Source: Ischnura elegans | Lineage: Eukaryota > Arthropoda > Insecta > Odonata > Coenagrionidae | DNA length: 64,000 bases | Direction of reading: 5' to 3' | Assembly (NCBI RefSeq): GCF_921293095.1 | Contig: NC_060251.1 | Location: 87,964,566 to 88,028,565, forward strand | Part shown: positions 6,901-25,800 of the stretch, one piece after another | Position numbering within the stretch: position 1 is the first letter of the stretch | How the letters are laid out: each line of letters begins with the position of its first letter | The notes under the pieces: generated by a model | Seen by the model: only the letters and a program-made list of their open reading frames with translations | Database searches by the model: none | What the model was told of the DNA's origin: nothing | Program-made: the position numbers and the translations under genes

Positions 6901-9667
6901 ACTTTTGCCATGAGGGAAGGGTGGAGAGAAACCGCCAAGGGGACCATGGCTTAACGTCCCATCCAATGGACAGAATGCTACACTTGAAGTGCCCTCCAAA
7001 AGGCACTCAAGCAGAGATCGGGAAGCCTCTGAAATATCTCTGCCATAACCGGGAATCGAACCAGGACCCATTGGGTGGGAAGCCAGTTCTCTAGCCACCA
7101 CACCAACCAGATCCCTTCCTTCATGTTTTCATCCCTCCAAATACATATGACAGTGCTACTCAGCCAAATATGCTGGTAATAATGTTTCAAATATCAGTTA
7201 ATTATCAATGTCTTCGATTCACTTTGTTTTAAAATATTAGTAGTTATTGTCAATGCAATAGTATCAAATTACTGTCATTCATTTATTGTGTTTTGAATTG
7301 TCAGTTAGCAGAAATTGTTAGAGAAGCGTGGGGCAAGTTGGAAGCTGGAGTGAAAGTGGGAGGAATGATTTTTAAATCGGTATGGTTCGCATATGATCAG
7401 GCGCTGATTAGCCAGTCAGCAAGGGGACTACAGGCTCTAGTGGATGCGTTGAACAAGCGGTGCGAGGAGTATGGGATGAGGATTAATCACAAGAAGACTA
7501 AGGTAATGCGGTTTTGTTAAGTATCGCGAGTGAGGAATGTGAGACTCAAGATAAAAGTAGGTGGGGAAAAACTTGAGCAGGTAGAGCAATTTAACTATTT
7601 GGGCAGCACATTAGAGGAAAATGGACACAGTAGCAAGGACATCAGGAAGCGAAATGCACTGGCAAAGGAGGCGTTCAAGAACAGGAAGAAGCTTCTGAGA
7701 GGATCATTATGTAAGAGTTTAAAGAAAGGGTTAGCGAAGAGTTTGATCTGGAGTGCAGCTCTCTACGGTGCGGAAACGTGGACACTGAGGGAAGATGACG
7801 AGAGGAGATTGGAGGCATTCGAGATGTGGGTATGGGGATGAATGGAGAGGGTGAAATGGACGGAGAGGAAAAGGAATGACGAAGTGCAGGACATGGTTGG
7901 CGAGAAGAGGCAGCTTTAAGATGAGATACGGATGAGACAAGGTATGGATGGAGGGAGTACTTAGCCGGGAGGGGATGTTGAAAATGGTGTTAGAGGGTAG
8001 AATGTTAGGGAAAATAGGGAGGGGAAGGAAAAGAATAGGATTTTTAGATAGATTAAAAGGGAGTAGGCCTTACAGTGAATTGAAGAAAGCAGTGCTGGAA
8101 GGAAAGGGAGGCTCCCAGATCACTTCTTTAATACTACATGGAAATCTACCTTAATCAGTAGAATACTATATAAAAAAATGAATAAAAGTAATTGTTACTG
8201 TCAATCCATTAATCTAACGCGTTGATTTAATTTATTCTCAAGTATAAATTGTTGTTATTGCTAATTTAAATGAATTAAATCTTTCTCTTTAACCTAACCT
8301 GCACAAAATAACTAAATTTATGAGCAGTCGACAAACCGCTTGCTGATTTGACAATCCATTGTCGTCTGCTACAGGATGCTAAAGCGAAGTAGTTTCCCAT
8401 CCGTGATCAATATAAATAACGTTTTAATTGTATTTGCTTTTCCCTGAATCTAATACCGATTAGAACTTGAAATAAATTAAGAATCCAAAATTTGGTGATC
8501 ATGGACAAAAACTGGACAATGGATATAACCCTACTGCAACCACTCCTTGCTTCGCCAATAAATACGCCATAATTATCAAGGCACACCGGTGTATTATAAT
8601 AATGCTATTTCATTATTTGTTATATCCAATCAAATTTGACAGCAATGAACACATGAATGAAAGTTGGAAAAAAATATGAGAATAGCCTCTGTTGAGACAT
8701 GCAGCTATTTGTAACATTAAATGCTTGAAATTGCAACAACAATTTTCCAATAAAATTTATAGCATTAATAATAATGGTGTTCATAAGATTGTGCTCCACC
8801 CCTCTCTTACTATTGTCAACAAGGTGATGATATGAAATAAACAATTCTTAAGTGACCCATCATCAAAACCTCACCACCTCGAAATAGGTGTTCTGCAAGT
8901 AATTTCAAAGGCAGATAAACGCAAAATTCTATAGACTTCATGTATACTCTCGTATAGAGAAAAAAATTTGATTAAAAATATAAACAACATTAATTCATTC
9001 ATTACTTCTCCAGTTTTATTCATGCTCACTATTATGCATCAGTGTATCAAATTTCATAATGTGTAAATATGTGGCCTCTGAGATTTCTTTACAGAACGTG
9101 TATACAATATTACACATAAACCTGCTATTAGCAAGCCATGGGTATTTTCTTTGTCACAACCATCCAACCAGTCTGTAAACATCATTCTTTAACTAAGCAG
9201 AAATGAGATAGTAAAAACTACTTACAGCCATTGATGTAATAGAAGATTTTGAAAATAGTCTTTCAGCTTCTTTAAACTTTCTATTCCTCTTGTCAGCTTT
9301 ACTGTTTGTATTCTTATTGCTTGCTAAGTAGCGGTCCCATCCTCGAATAATATTTCCATATAGTTGGGTGTCTTCTAAATAGCTGCCTTCAAATGCATAA
9401 ATCTGCCTTTCTAGATTTGCTAGGGTTTCCTGTAAAATTATTTAATTACACTTTTGTAACAATACATTTTTTGATAGTGCCAAGCATAACAACTACATTT
9501 GACAATATGAAATAACCATCCATATCGAGTTCAAAGTAAATTTATTTTAGATGAAAATCAATTACTACGTAAAAATAAGAGAAACTTACAGCGATTTCTG
9601 CCTTTCTCTTCACTAATTCCGCTAATTCTGCCCTTGTATCAATTGTTGTTGGTGCTTTCGCCGCCAT
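3918..9667 (-). CDS. MEAF6: MEAF6 (Esa1-associated factor 6), histone acetyltransferase complex subunit, 4 exons
   Basis: Spliced CDS on the minus strand: exon 1 9667-9590, exon 2 9429-9226, exon 3 4323-4287, exon 4 4129-3918 (stop TGA). All junctions are GT-AG and the frame stays open for 176 aa, close to the size of animal MEAF6 proteins. Residues 11-46 form the conserved coiled-coil start ([25 protein letters not shown]). They are followed by [12 protein letters not shown] (about 50-61) and the basic [16 protein letters not shown] block (about 74-89), which are hallmarks of the Eaf6 family. The tail is low-complexity and Ser/Asn rich and ends in a basic [13 protein letters not shown]. In other animals this protein is a shared subunit of NuA4/TIP60 and of HBO1/MOZ-type MYST acetyltransferases in the nucleus. 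The ATG sits in good context (gccgccATGgcg reads from a CpG-bearing first exon). Intron 2 is 4.9 kb and holds most of the transposon load. It is head to head with PEX2. Confidence 0.95.
6558..6815. mobile_element. hAT-type MITE, CAGTGGCGTA family, in MEAF6 intron 2
   Basis: 258 bp beginning cagtggcgtagct and ending gttatgtcactg, with C and G homopolymer runs just inside each end. It is flanked by a perfect 8-bp duplication, cagtgaac (6550-6557 and 6816-6823), the length typical of hAT superfamily insertions. The AT-rich middle (aaatacattttacatcatttt) is shared with 39470-39724 and, inverted, with 61246-61528. Confidence 0.85.
6838..7115 (-). repeat. tRNA-derived SINE
   Basis: On the minus strand there is a tRNA-like head. 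An A-box-like tggtgtggtggctagaga (about 7107-7088) and a B box ggttcgattccc (7062-7051) are spaced as in a Pol III internal promoter. The non-tRNA body continues to about 6838 and contains gatgggacgttaagcc. There is no clover-leaf acceptor stem, so this is a SINE and not a functional tRNA gene. Its boundaries are approximate. Confidence 0.75.
7293..8154 (+). mobile_element. Non-LTR retrotransposon reverse transcriptase fragment, inactivated
   Basis: Three frame-broken segments in order. 7293-7520 covers the palm ([17 protein letters not shown], then [26 protein letters not shown]). 7530-7841 covers [19 protein letters not shown] through [20 protein letters not shown]. 7948-8154 is the basic C-terminal end ([14 protein letters not shown]). 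The family's catalytic F/Y-A-D-D reads FAYDQ here (about 7387-7401), so a catalytic aspartate is lost, and stops separate the segments. The 5' part (endonuclease) is absent, consistent with 5' truncation. It lies in MEAF6 intron 2, antisense to that gene. Confidence 0.88.
8160..9220. other. AT-rich part of MEAF6 intron 2
   Basis: No exon, RNA gene or bounded repeat seen. The sequence is uniformly AT-rich and leads to the donor side of exon 2 (donor at 9225 on the minus strand). Confidence 0.4.
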
Positions 9668-9722
9668 TTCTGCGATTTGAGTTGGCGATAGATCGAATTG
9701 TTCTGGAATCGGAAATGTGGTA

Positions 9723-19800: not shown

Positions 19801-22800
19801 AACTTCTCTCCACCCTAATGACCCACCCGAGCTAGACCTTCTCGGAATGAAGGGAGGGCCACCGCGGGGCGTTTTGACAAGGCTTTTGTTCCCTGTCCCT
19901 CATGCAGCGATGGAAGGAAGAAGAAAAAGAATGCTTTTGTATCTAATTGCCTCCTTGCACTCCCAACCTTTTCCGCGATCAGGATTTTCTACTCCTACCT
20001 GTCCTAACGATCTGGGTATTCCCCGATCCTTGGCAGTCGACACACTACCACCACTTCACCCCAAAACAACCTCCTGGCATTCCTTCTCCTTTCTCGTCCT
20101 CACTCACCCCTTTACGTTAGTAACACCCCCAATGCATAAAACATCTGTGCATTTCAGTACACAAAGAAACGAGAAATATGTTCACAAATTTTCACCTCAC
20201 GGTAAATTGTCTTTTCACCTATTCATAATGAAACGATTTTTACCATGTAAAGTCTAAACTCATCGTCAGGAAAGAGAAATTATTTTCTATCACACAATTA
20301 GTTGGGTAGTTATCTGGATTTCACCCCAATGGTAAACTGTCACGTCATCAGTAACTGTATAAACGCTTGCAATTTTGTATAGACTATCTTAGACGCAAAG
20401 GGATTTTTTTTTCGAATGAAAGGTACAAGACATATAACAATAACTGTGCGATGTGTTCTTCACGGTAGTCGGTGAAATTTCTGAATCTCCTGGCAAGTTA
20501 CAGTTACTCATTCAGCGAGAAATATTCACACAACGGTGAGGAGGCATTATTCTACGAATTCGGATAATGAATTGTGTTAAATTTTTCTTAGAATTGCGGC
20601 TTGGAGTAATTCTAAACAGAGTCACCCTAGGATGTACCCAAAGGTGACTATCACCACGGCAGGTACGTGGGCGCGGAGCGGAGAAGGTGCCCAAGCAAAA
20701 CTAAGTCGGAAGCCACGGAAAAACAAGGAAAACTTGGCTAGCCATGAGTTGCTATGAATAATTCTTGCGAAAAGATGAAGTTTTGTCAATGAACATTACA
20801 ACGAAGCAAACATAATGATTCTTAGTTAAAAGAGGAAGCACAATTGGTATTGCAATATTTTCCTTTTGTTAAACAATTTCACTTGGTTTATAAGTTTAAA
20901 AAAATAAATAATAGGATTATAAATGTATTATTGCATTTCATATGAAACATAATTGCTTTGACATTAGCGTTGAGAGTGCAGACCCTGACGTAGCGACGAG
21001 GAAATTCTCGGCCCAAGCAAAACTAAGTCGGAGGCCCATGAAAAAACAACTTTGACTAGCCATGAGTTTTTATGAATAATTCTCGTAAAAAGATGAAATT
21101 TTGTCAATGAACATCAAAACGAGGCAAATAGATTGATTCTTAGCTAAAATAGAAAGCAAAATTGGTATGGTAATATTTTCCTTTTGTTTAACAATTTTAT
21201 TTTGTTTATAATGTTTAGAAATATAAATAATATGATTATAAATATATTATAGCATTTCATACGAAACATAATTGCTTTGACATTAACATTTAGAGTGCAG
21301 TCAACGACGTAGCGACGAGGAAATACTGAGCGCCGCAGCGGCGCCGAAAATCCAACGACGTAACTTTTTCCATTAGAGGCCAATAAAATGTAAACTATAA
21401 ACACTACGCTAACAAAATTTTACATTTAGACGTACGAAGCAGAAAAAATAGACTACTGAAAATTTCAAAATGATTCATTGGAATGGAAAATTTTTACACC
21501 ACTTTTAAAACCACGAGCGCCGCTAAGGCGCAGTGAATCCATATGAGGTTTAACAGAAGTTTGTGAAAGAAGGTCAAGCTAAATTGGACTTTTGGCATCA
21601 TGTAGTCTTTGGGAGTGTTCAACAGCACTATCCTCAGAAACCATTTTTTATTCCAACATTCCTTGTGCACGCCCTAATATTATGTTTATTCATATGAAAA
21701 TATGGTCAGTAGAATCACACCTTACATCTGCAATCCATTGTATTCTTTGAATACCCTAAATGCATGTAAATTATATATTTATTTATTATTATCTGTATTT
21801 ATTAATCCTTGTATCTTTGTGTAGTTTGATGGGAGTCTGATAAACTCAAATATAATTCATATCCTGTTTTCTGTATCAAATCTATAATATATACAGCCCG
21901 ATGTGTGACGGATAGCTCACTGACTGATTCACTCACTGATTCACGTATACAAATTCCCGACCACTTCCGGACGTGCTGGGAAGACGAAATTTTTACAGGT
22001 CGTGGAGAAAAAATATTCATCGGGGGGAAAAGTCCGAAAACTCGAAAAAGTCGATCGGTTTTCGAGATATATCGATCCGAATTAACATTGGAGCCTTATG
22101 GGACTAAAACATATTCCATTTTTTGCCTACATAAAAATGTCACGGGAACATGAAATGTCACTGACGGAAACTAGATTTTTTGGCCGATTTTTTGATGCGA
22201 AACATTTTGCCATATTTTGTTTATAAGTATTTTTTATAATTTTTTTAAATTTCCAATGCTTTTCTTATGGGCCTATCTTTGGATTTTTTTAAAACCAACT
22301 TATAATCGTTGTAGGAATAAGTCCTTAACTTATGAGATACTAGATTTTTTGGTTGATTTTTTGGTGTGGTCGCCTTTGCAATTTTTTGTTTAAAAGTATT
22401 TTTTTTAACAATTTAAAATTTCCAATGCTTTTCTTATGGGCTCACTTTGGGAATTTTTTTGACCAATTGGCAATAATCGTAGGACCAATTCAATTTAATG
22501 CAAGATACTAGATTTTTTTCTTAATTTTTTGGCTATCCTTTGATATCCACATGTTAATCAAACTTCGAGTAATTAACGATTATGTATTTTCATTGAATTT
22601 GCGACTCCTACAACGTTTGGTAACTTACAACACATCCGCCGTGAAGTTTGCATTCCCTCAACACACGATTTTAAATTTTTCGGAATTTTTTTTCGCCACT
22701 TCCCGACGACGTACGGACACCAAATTAACGTGAGTGACGTCTTTTTTGTGCCCCTACGTGCCGATACCCGGAGAGCGCAGAATATTTAATTTAAACGGGT

Positions 22801-25800
22801 AACACCTTCGAAAAACCATGCTTGCACTACAGCTAAAGAGCCGAAATTTTTATCGAAGGTAAACGATGCCGCGTTATACGGGACAAGCACTAAAAGTCCC
22901 CCGATAACCCCCTGGTACCCCCCCAAAAAAATTAAAATTATTTAATAAGTGGTATATTTCGTGTACCATTCATCCGAGTTGTATCGTTTTTATTTTTTCG
23001 GACTGGGCATTGTGTCGGCTATATTTACGCGTCATGTTAAATTATATTGCCCCATTTACACACCCGCAATAAAACTTCAAATTTTTAAATGTACATTTCT
23101 TAACAAAATAGTAGAGGTAAAAAAGGGCTTCCAAGACAAGGACACCTAAAAGCGATTTTTTTAAACCACTTCCCCATAAAGTACGGCTACGAAATTCACA
23201 CGAGTAATGCCTTATTACAGCGCCTATTCACCGCTATGTGGAGAACACAGAATTGGTAATATAAATGTGAGCACTACGGGAAAATTAATTGTTCCCCTAA
23301 AGCTAGATCGCTGGAATTTCTACTGTAGGTAAACAAAGACCTTTTATGCAAGAAAACCCCTCGAAATTTCAAGTGGCTTCCTATAACACCGGGGAAAAAA
23401 TTCTTTTTTTTTCTGTAAATAGCATGTTCTTCGGTGTTTTCGCATATTTTAGCAGTAATTCCCTTCTCCTATGACTCATCGCTAAGGAATTTATTTCGAT
23501 GATTGTGACCGTTGCCAGTACACTCAAAAACAACCTGTTAACCCCCGGACCGCCTTCAAAACATCGTCATAAGCTAAAATGCCACAATCACGGCTAGCAT
23601 GCGTCAAGATTCTGCCTCATTATCCCCCGGTAGCATTTGTAAACGATGGGGGATAGCTGGTAGTACGCATTGCTCTGTGAGGAGTGAAAACCCTGGCGGC
23701 GAAGCTGCCCCCGCCCCAGGAACGACGGAGCCATTCCGAGGAGTCAGAGGCGCGGAAAACCTCCGAGAACCCTCGGGCGGCAAATCTGCTCCAACACGTG
23801 GTGCAGCCGAATGGGTGTCTTACGAGGGGGGAGGGCGCCGATAACCCTTGGGCGGCAAAGCCGCCCACAGGCGAGGAACGGCGAAGCCGTTCCGAGGAGT
23901 CGACGGCTCGGTGGGACCCAGGTAAACCTTGGGCGGCGAAGCCGCCCCAACACGAGGAAGGGCGATGCCGTTCCCAGGAGTCGACCCCTCGGGGGGACTC
24001 GGGTGACCCTTGGGCGGCGAAGCCGCCCTCCCACGATGAACGGCGAAGCCGTTCCGAGGAACTAGCGGGTCTCCGTCAGAGGGCTACCTCGATATCTGGG
24101 CGGCGAAGCCGACACCGGACGAGGAACGGCGAAGCCGTTCCGAGGAGTCGCGGGCGGGACGGCGAAGCCGTCCGGTGGGGGCAGCCGGCGAAGCCGGATG
24201 CGGGGGGTTTTAGGGGGCGTAGCCCCCTAACGAGCGCGCGCAGCGCGGCGAGTTCGTAATATATACTGAAACATTGTATGCCCTGACAATACCAATAATA
24301 AATGAGAAATATTTGGCATTGGTAGAATATCTTTTATCGAGAAATATAAGTGATCAGAACTTCTGAGGGAAAAATCTTGAATGAGAAAGAAAATTTGGAA
24401 TCTTGAGCTAGATCCAAGATTTTTTTTACAAATTCTCCCTCGTTTTGCTTGACTAAAACAATCCCAACTCGCATAGCCATACTCTGTGATAATTTTTAAA
24501 TTTATACTGCCTAATGTATATGGACTCTCTAACTGTTTATTTTCTATTCCCTCAGGAACTACTTGCCTTCACTCTTCCACTTGTTAATTACCATTATTTG
24601 AAAAGGAAGATTGGCAGTTTGATTTTTACCAAAGAACCTGTGGAAGCCATGGATGCTTGCCTTGATCATAATACTCTTTGCTCATTGTGTGAAGAGCCTC
24701 CTATATTGCCATATAAAATAGGCTGTCCACATATTTTTTGTTACTACTGCATCAAGGTGAGTTATGCTGACTAAGTTTACTTCATCTTTATGCAGCAAAT
24801 TCGAGTACAATAGCTGTTCACCAAGCAGAATGCATTTCAAAGGCTTCAGGTCAATGCTTATTGTTTACATGTTAGTGATAGATGTCCTGGAAATCTTGTG
24901 TAGTTTCTGGGGAAAGTTCTGATTTTATAGTCTTAAAAAATAGAGGGAAGGCCACAAAGTATTTGTTGCTGACATTTTATGATTCATTAGTTGAATATTT
25001 TGTAATCATTAGCTGTGATTGGATTTGGTTTGAATGCATGGGAAGTACGTATTATCTGATTTTCAAAGTTTACATTAAATGTATTTTGAAATAAGGCAAA
25101 TAAAAAATCATTTCTTCAGCAAAGCTTTTCAGAAAAAAGCGTTCCTTTGCCTTCCATCTTGTGTATTCCAATGAACATTTTAAACCTTTATTGTGTGATT
25201 TTCAGATGATTTTAAAATACAGTGGGCCATTTTAATATGCATTTATTCTATTTTACATATTTATCATTCGTCTATGACATAGGTATACCTTAATGAAGGA
25301 AAAACATTTTTTAACATTCAAGAATGCGTAAAATTTAATGGATTCATCAAATGCCTTTAAACTGTCCTGTCTGCTTTGAATACCTACTGGTGAACATCTT
25401 TATAAGTTACTCATGCTGTACATTCTGTTGCACTCCTGAAATTATACGTATTGCCTGCTTTACCCAGATTCTCACCCTGAAATTTTATTACCTGGAACTC
25501 GCACCATGAGACACTATGAAATGATACATGTATGCGTTAGATGTTTGTAACTTCATTGTTGTTCATGTGAATATCACATTTAACCTATCCATTGCATTTT
25601 TTTGTTACGTTATGCTTTTATCAGTTAGATTAACCATAATTTTAAGCAAAGATAACATACGTTATAATCAAAATTGTCACTGCGTGACCTTATACAATGC
25701 CCACAAAAGTAATTTTAGTATGCAAATCTGATTTTTTCTTTGAATTACTTGGCAAAAGTATTGATTATGTGTATGTTGTAGAAGTTATGCCAGCAAATTG

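Follow-up and report, generated by a model that had tools for sequence, protein, structure and literature searches.

The element and its limits

The window analyzed here is a stretch of 64,000 nucleotides from Ischnura elegans (NC_060251.1, positions 87,964,566 to 88,028,565 of the forward strand). A perfect 10-bp direct repeat, TAATATATAC, is present at 21885–21894 and 24257–24266 and brackets 2,362 bp, as the first-pass annotation had described; it was read there as a target duplication at the two ends of a mobile element. In other copies, however, the left end starts as A/TCTATATTATATACARCCC and the 3' end closes as GCGAG/T (the slash marks the junction), and therefore the element in the window extends from 21881 to 24252 (2,372 bp), with A (21880) and T (24253) as the neighbouring bases. 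Judged from these copies, the left TAATATATAC is a part of the element's own left end (A/TCTATAATATATAC), whose counterparts elsewhere are TCTATATTATATAC, TCCTATCTATATAC and TCTCTATTATATAC, and the right TAATATATAC is host DNA. The features are listed in Table 1.

Table 1. Features of the element and its flanks (positions in the window)
Feature	Position	Strand	Basis
Element copy, very probably a non-autonomous Helitron, 5'-TC...CGAG-3'	21881..24252	+	Limits from other copies and array junctions
Host A, 5' junction A/TC	21880..21880	+	Read in sequence; base tally at other 5' ends
Left terminal motif TCTATAATATATAC, holds left 10-mer copy (21885-21894)	21881..21894	+	Counterparts in other copies
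Host flank TTCGTAATATATAC: junction T and target-like TATATAC box; holds right 10-mer copy (24257-24266)	24253..24266	+	
5' subterminal region	22008..22595	+	79-83% partial match to unit 3' of RepHel element in L097
Tandem duplication, 169-bp spacing, 80% identity	22167..22459	+	
Weak second duplication, 22685-22864 vs 23155-23334, 67%, offset 470	22685..23334	+	
Short hairpin units (GGGCGGCGAAGCCGCCC, GGAACGGCGAAGCCGTTCC) in a GC-rich array, partly with period 81	23690..24200	+	
Right terminal sequence	24153..24252	+	95% identity to C14 RepHel element 3' end
Hairpin, 9-bp stem	24210..24230	+	Folding
Terminal hairpin, stops 2 nt short of 3' end CGAG	24231..24250	+	Folding

The earlier description was right in several respects: the element is mobile and non-coding and has many copies, its 3' end carries hairpins, and TIRs, LTRs and poly-A are all lacking. 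Three inverted-repeat pairs were detected in the element, none of them terminal. In the 5' subterminal region, positions 131–487 and 535–718 of sequence A align with locus L097. The claimed 169-bp tandem duplication is real (22167–22290 and 22336–22459), and the "~470-bp" duplication is weak, covering ~180 bp. The GC content of the right half is ~0.58–0.70, and the 81-bp period of the hairpin array is seen at 23842–24060. When the last 96 nt were folded as single-stranded DNA, the z score was −4.06 and none of 200 shuffled sequences was equally good, and the last 31 nt folded alone were unremarkable (z −0.28).

Copies in the genome

In the host genome, both the left and the right ends were found to recur at many places. 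The 3'-end motif had 1,676 exact matches in the 1.72-Gb genome, with 0 for the reversed control, and exact A-type left ends outside junctions numbered 136. The base before the 5' end was A in 87, T in 12 and C in 1 of the 100 listed among these 136, G having been excluded beforehand by the search pattern. The 3' end of the GCGTGCGAG subtype was followed by T and a non-C base in 307 places and by a non-T base in 7; the window copy belongs to the GCGCGGCGAG subtype. Nothing matched in the plasmid and phage collections searched, GARAGCTGAAATTTGGCAYG, patterned on a known motif, was found 0 times in prokaryote genome contigs, and Rfam gave one match, far under its gathering score.

Target site

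A nested relative in locus L105 provides one case of an insertion with its uninterrupted counterpart: AAAGTTCGAA and TAATCTCACC flank a 405-bp insert, and the uninterrupted AAAGTTCGAATAATCTCACCT exists in four of the loci fetched. The insert sits exactly between A and T, and a target duplication is absent. The sequences flanking 40 copies on the right, all of the GCGTGCGAG subtype, were also tabulated; they are all different, and no constant direct repeat was found in them. The nested site and these flanks speak against the 10-mer as a target duplication. The flanks do have a common preference. TATA occurs in the first 20 nt of 31 of the 40, as compared with 5, 4, 8 and 4 in the next four 20-nt stretches, and TATAC occurs in 14, as compared with 1, 1, 3 and 1. 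In 5,000 shuffles, the mean count of TATAC was 2.0 and the maximum 8, and thus the TATAC box exceeds plain AT-richness. The TATA/TATAC box ends ~12–15 nt from the junction in many of the right flanks, and likewise in the element's own left end; the TATAC box lies ~8–15 nt from the A/T exchange point at a variable place.

A likely RepHel partner with the same 3' end

An autonomous coding relative, which the first reading had recommended looking for, was found in the same genome. An open RepHel frame of 1,841 aa lies on C14, and is a homologue of Helraiser (7lcc), matched over residues 479–1819 with an E value of 6.5e-157. It contains PIF1 (2.2e-50) and Helitron_like_N (4.1e-31) in Pfam, the motifs PHAH at 922, YLFKY at 1064 and GPGGYGKT at 1408, and a Herpes_teg_N match of 27.0 bits against a cut-off of 25; an endonuclease domain had no Pfam match at E 0.1 in this ORF. 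The 3' end of the C14 element is 95% identical to that of the window element over ~100 bp (A 2276–2376 vs L098 1855–1956). The 3' ends were of the window-element kind in all five fetched loci of this RepHel class, where the path from ORF to 3' end was read continuously on C14 only and the other four have a gap of ~2–3 kb in the reading, from the Rep match to the fetched piece. The terminal GCGCGC hairpin is present in three of these loci (L098, L099, L100) and a shorter form in two (L097, L101). The common 3' end and the junctions described below make a C14-type RepHel the likely partner.

The 6 kb that precede the C14 ORF were searched and no left end of the element was found, and the one in L097 is that of the unit after the RepHel element, rather than the RepHel element's own. 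A-type left ends lie 31–54 kb upstream of RepHel ORFs, from which the idea of a "giant" element of 46–52 kb on C14 arose; it was ruled out, as the upstream left end in L103 belongs to a separate copy that is followed by another copy. RepHel matches on C5 are spaced 39.0 kb apart, which may be an array period, and three of them have a 3' end exactly 5,327 bp away.

A class-ii Helitron of 1,491 aa was also observed at one locus (L096). The 3.7 kb that follow its ORF include an old relative of the 5' region and one bare GCGAGT string, and the hairpin-GCGAG end was not found there.

Head-to-tail arrays and a proposed model of movement

Unlike units meet at GCGAG/TC, in the order A-B in L007, L010 and L002 and B-A in L034, and RepHel elements are joined head to tail at the same junction to B (L099) and to A (L101). 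A C14-type RepHel, or a close relative, would nick at A/TC and peel off one strand; the peeling would halt at the 3' hairpin and CGAG, and the freed strand would be joined between the A and the T of an AT-rich target. The 10-bp repeat in the window would then follow from the presence of TAATATATAC in both the left end and this particular target. Movement by the C14-type RepHel is inferred from the common 3' end and the junctions.

The resemblance between left end and target may explain the head-to-tail pile-up. We tentatively propose that the left end mimics the preferred target, so that the transposase reads one A/T...TATAC signal both for the donor cut and for landing; every resident's left end would then be a prime target, unlike copies would insert directly before residents, and arrays would grow in front. 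If true, this target mimicry would account mechanistically for the clustering that is known in Helitrons.

A competing account, which opposes the mimicry and not the identity as a Helitron, holds that the arrays arise solely from rolling-circle read-through or unequal crossing-over, and that the likeness of left end and target is a by-product of nick-site needs. We regard it as a serious possibility, if somewhat short of an even chance. Some neighbours are near-identical, as it predicts (5 mismatches in 3,781 bp in L034 and 3 in 3,125 bp in L011/L012), and tandem arrays elsewhere have been attributed to terminator bypass (PMC4067079). However, the unlike neighbours listed above are joined by one and the same GCGAG/TC junction, one A-A pair is just 90.6% identical over 1.7 kb (L103), and the TATAC box goes beyond AT-richness in the shuffle control.

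Class of the element

The window element is very probably a non-autonomous Helitron. Two hallmarks of this class, a partner with HUH/Rep and a Pif1-type helicase and an A/T insertion site that is not duplicated, are seen in the 1,841-aa ORF, linked through the 3' end and the junctions, and in the one nested case with the base tallies, respectively. The 5' terminus is TC. The 3' ends that motif searches or BLAST of the right end recovered are GCGAG rather than CTRR, and we therefore place the element in Helitrons at large, outside canonical-terminus Helitron1. Non-canonical termini have been reported in other Helitrons (PMC5148889). The C-terminal endonuclease that marks Helentron/Helitron2 was not detected in the 1,841-aa ORF.

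The first-pass annotation had concluded that no known class fits and had proposed an undescribed or poorly described group. It set Helitrons aside because of the apparent target duplication, which is a product of the likeness between left end and target. The Helitron class does fit, as this genome has a RepHel frame on an element whose 3' end is the same, and the false "undescribed class" is removed; a target preference resembling an element's own end can pose as a target duplication.

It is very unlikely that a site-specific recombinase, either an integron-like one or a Crypton-like tyrosine recombinase, integrated a circle at a short TATATAC core and left a direct repeat. The resemblance of the target to the left end, the mixed head-to-tail arrays and the hairpin at one end would suit it, but the exchange point is A/T with the box at a variable distance, and the coding elements found with the window-type 3' end encode RepHel. 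A TIR-less DNA transposon, for example Mutator-like, with a true 10-bp target duplication is hardly credible: Mutator-like elements make target duplications of 8–11 bp and a perfect 10-mer stands on both sides of the window copy, but the left 10-mer is inside a left end common to other copies, the constant repeat is absent from the 40 different right flanks, the nested site refutes the idea for the nested copy, and the array junctions are GCGAG/TC.

Comparison with known Helitrons

The family has variant traits, namely CGAG in place of CTRR at the 3' end, the GC-rich hairpin array, the herpes-tegument-like domain and the mixed arrays, and its 3'-motif matches, arrays and RepHel partners in one genome form a large natural data set for target choice and clustering. 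With Helraiser/Helibat1, the bat Helitron (PMC4778049), it shares 5'-TC, a hairpin near the 3' end, the A/T target, an AT-rich preference that peaks beside the 3' end, and head-to-tail circle junctions. It differs in having CGAG instead of CTAG, the long hairpin array, an extra N-terminal domain in the C14 partner and the TATA/TATAC box at its targets, of which the consulted part of that paper makes no mention. Helentron/HINE elements (DINE-1; PMC4067079) are likewise abundant rolling-circle elements that are non-autonomous and rely on a partner to move, some with internal tandem repeats; an endonuclease domain was not found in the C14 partner, and insertion here is at A/T, as compared with a T-rich preference there. 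VTD-bearing Helitrons (PMC9741609) share a herpes-tegument-like, deubiquitinase-type domain fused to RepHel, and were assigned to the Helentron group, with an endonuclease at the C-terminus; none was found in the C14 partner. Plants, bats and silkworm also have tandem Helitron arrays in head-to-tail order (PMC5876387, PMC4067079), whereas those of I. elegans mix several non-autonomous types and RepHel elements at GCGAG/TC.

Ends and internal structure of the element

The element was placed at 21881-24252 of the window (2,372 bp), because independent copies (L002, L003, L007, L010, L012 and the window) have a common sequence from A|TCTATAWTATATACARCCC on and are divergent to the left of it, and because array junctions, at which the 3' end of one unit is joined directly to the 5' end of the next, read GCGAG|TC. 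One such junction (L013) has three additional bases, TCT, ahead of TCTATATT, and another (L016) carries the variant TCTATGATATATGC. The 10-mer TAATATATAC stands at 21885-21894 and 24257-24266, as described in the first-pass annotation, and the GC-rich array of short hairpins in the right half and the 169-bp-spaced duplication in the left half were likewise present. A repeat corresponding to the "470-bp" duplication was also detected, but it covers only ~180 bp at 67% identity. A short GC-rich palindromic stretch (GAGCGCCGCAGCGGCGCC, ACGACGTAGCGACGAGG) lies just upstream of the element, at 21300-21540, and is possibly a remnant of another such element. An exon-like ORF at 24514-24774, which matched a RING finger weakly (zf-C3HC4, E 0.0023, not reaching the cut-off), is reminiscent of a peroxin 2 gene; if it is such a gene, the element would be located in or next to a host gene.

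Genomic copies and the insertion site

Searching the genome (1.72 Gb, 110 contigs) with the element gave at least 68 matches, a lower bound with 11 of the 2,791 candidates scored. Among the 16 matches exceeding 1 kb, 15, the window included, extend from query base 1 and the remaining one from base 3, and thus the left 10-mer region is common to other copies. The 3'-end motif AGCCCCNTAACGAGCGCG occurs 1,676 times (805 + 871; reversed control, 0), and the 100 listed of these form clusters near contig ends (Table).

After the GCGTGCGAG end, the sequence continues with T and a base other than C, that is, outside array junctions, at 307 places, and with a base other than T at 7 places. Forty of the 307 right flanks were sampled, in which the T right after the end was fixed by the pattern, and no two were alike. 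Past the T, the flanks are AT-rich over ~16 nt, with A+T of 80% at nt 1-16 vs 64% at nt 20-60 (40 flanks, the window and L015). Of 100 places listed from 136, 87 have A immediately before TCTATATTATATACARCCCGATGTG, 12 have T and 1 has C, G being excluded by the pattern. At one locus (L105), a 405-bp relative is inserted in a 3' region of the same family, which lies there in reverse orientation, giving the arrangement AAAGTTCGAA|TCTATATTATATAC...GCGTGCGAG|TAATCTCACC. The intact site AAAGTTCGAATAATCTCACCT is present in L004, L013 and L033, and also in L105 itself, inside the inserted copy. In this one case, the insertion occurred exactly at A|T with 0 bases duplicated or lost. From the differing flanks (40/40) and the nested site, the earlier interpretation of the 10-mer as a target duplication was not sustained.

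A target box resembling the left end

TATA was found within 20 nt of the 3' junction in 31 of 40 flanks, vs 5, 4, 8 and 4 in the four successive 20-nt stretches beyond. TATAC was present in the first 20 nt of 14/40 flanks, vs 1, 1, 3 and 1 in the following stretches and a mean of 2.0 (maximum 8) in 5,000 shuffles. It ends at +12 to +15 in 11 of these 14 flanks, and at +14 in the element's own left end. When the flank profile was aligned position by position to the left end, no sharp optimum appeared at offset 0, because the position of the box differs among flanks by a few nucleotides. What the flanks and the left end share is a box at a comparable distance rather than a constant 14-mer. A stretch of at least 9 bases in common with the left-end motifs was detected in 7 of 42 flanks, by inspection the window (10 bases), L015 (9) and 5 of the 40 sampled, vs 0/41 at +40-60 or +80-100, 2/3,000 random host 20-mers and 3/3,000 such 20-mers taken at A|T sites of the host. 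From the box preference and these counts, the perfect repeat of the window lies at the upper extreme of a preference for targets similar to the left end.

The probable RepHel partner

A probable autonomous partner, of the kind called for by the first-pass annotation, was found on C14, where a frame for RepHel (Rep and Pif1-type helicase transposase) is accompanied by the same kind of 3' end; the last ~100 bp of the window match this end (L098) at 95%. The protein matched Helraiser (7lcc) over 479-1819 (6.5e-157) and contains PHAH, YLFKY and a Walker motif. Repeats of the KYATDHPEVNREAVR type lie between its N-terminal Herpes_teg_N domain and the RepHel part (Table).

Helitron_like_N (PF14214) gave 119 matches in the genome, and one class has frames mostly of about 1,550-1,925 aa. 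The 3' side was read at five loci of this class, and the hairpin end of the window element's family was present in 5/5 (Table); the reading from ORF to 3' end was gap-free at C14 only (L098, L102). In L097, the RepHel element end runs straight into another unit through the junction GCGAG|TCCCGTCTATATACAGCGGG, and the 5' region of this unit matches window 22008-22595 at 79-83%. The RepHel element is directly joined to a B-type copy (another non-autonomous type in these arrays) in L099, and to an A-type copy (like the window element) in L101. TAGCGAGCAAACGCGAGT was found at 19 sites (reversed control, 0), three of which are each located precisely 5,327 bp past one of three C5 RepHel matches. These three ends are spaced by 39.0 and 78.4 kb, and belong either to very large Helitrons or to the unit of a higher-order array.

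For the left end of the C14 element, no end motif was found within 6 kb on the upstream side of the ORF, a stretch that is partly common to three other contigs with RepHel matches (C15, C16 and C71). Blocks of 1,612 and ~1,530 bp upstream of this ORF (L104, C14:13032500-13038499) recur alone in many places at 88-93%, and are either nested repeats or captured DNA. Beside another Helitron class (L096, C5:80626400-80636399), an old relative of the family's 5' region (TTGATACAAATTCACAGCCCAAACTACCGGGCC...) lies on the reverse strand at 9287-9700, ~3 kb past the ORF, and the 5' module may therefore predate the window element's family.

Table. Features of the probable RepHel partner and distribution of 3' ends
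Feature	Location	Strand	Remark
C14 RepHel ORF	L102:326-5851	(-)	1,841 aa
Herpes_teg_N (deubiquitinase-type)	residues 15-165 of C14 ORF		N-terminus; 27.0 bits, cut-off 25
Helitron_like_N	residues 745-927 of C14 ORF		
PIF1	residues 1379-1588 of C14 ORF		
Pif1_2B	residues 1682-1726 of C14 ORF		
RepHel locus 3' end	C14 (L098)		terminal GCGCGC hairpin
RepHel locus 3' end	C13 (L099)		terminal GCGCGC hairpin
RepHel locus 3' end	C1 (L100)		terminal GCGCGC hairpin
RepHel locus 3' end	C5 (L097)		shorter form
RepHel locus 3' end	C11 (L101)		shorter form
C5 RepHel matches with 3' end 5,327 bp away	75914953, 75953952, 76032327	(-)	
Cluster of 3'-end copies	C1:1.26-1.84 Mb		among 100 listed of 1,676
Cluster of 3'-end copies	C1:153-169 Mb		among 100 listed of 1,676
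Cluster of 3'-end copies	C2:10-216 kb		among 100 listed of 1,676

Formation of the arrays

Judging from the sequences, recent tandem amplification is indicated by near-identical array neighbours (5 differences in 3,781; 3 in 3,125), and serial insertion by unlike ones (A-B, B-A, RepHel-A, RepHel-B and one A-A pair at 90.6%). Because the left end of a resident copy, A|TCTATATTATATAC, itself qualifies as a good target under the rule of A|T plus box, insertion in front of residents would produce the observed GCGAG|TCTATATTATATAC junctions. Helitron insertion near other Helitrons has already been published (PMC12477314). In a limited search of the Helitron literature, with sources consulted in part, no statement of the left end as a target mimic was found.

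Comparison with known Helitrons

The window element is a Helitron at large, with a RepHel partner, insertion at A|T without duplication, 5'-TC and a 3' hairpin, and the earlier statement that no known class fits has to be withdrawn. The canonical 3'-CTRR was absent and all the ends read were GCGAG; therefore, the element was not filed as a canonical-terminus Helitron1. Helentrons are distinguished by an endonuclease, whereas no such domain was found in the 1,841-aa ORF of the C14 partner. The tegument-like domain is known in Helitrons, and those that carry it are assigned to the endonuclease-bearing group (PMC9741609), whereas the C14 protein has this domain with no endonuclease detected. Helraiser inserts at AT, with an AT-rich preference strongest adjoining the 3' end, and forms head-to-tail circles with the 3' hairpin acting as a terminator (PMC4778049), and Helitrons make no target duplication (PMC5876387). 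This behaviour fits the observations on the window element's family.
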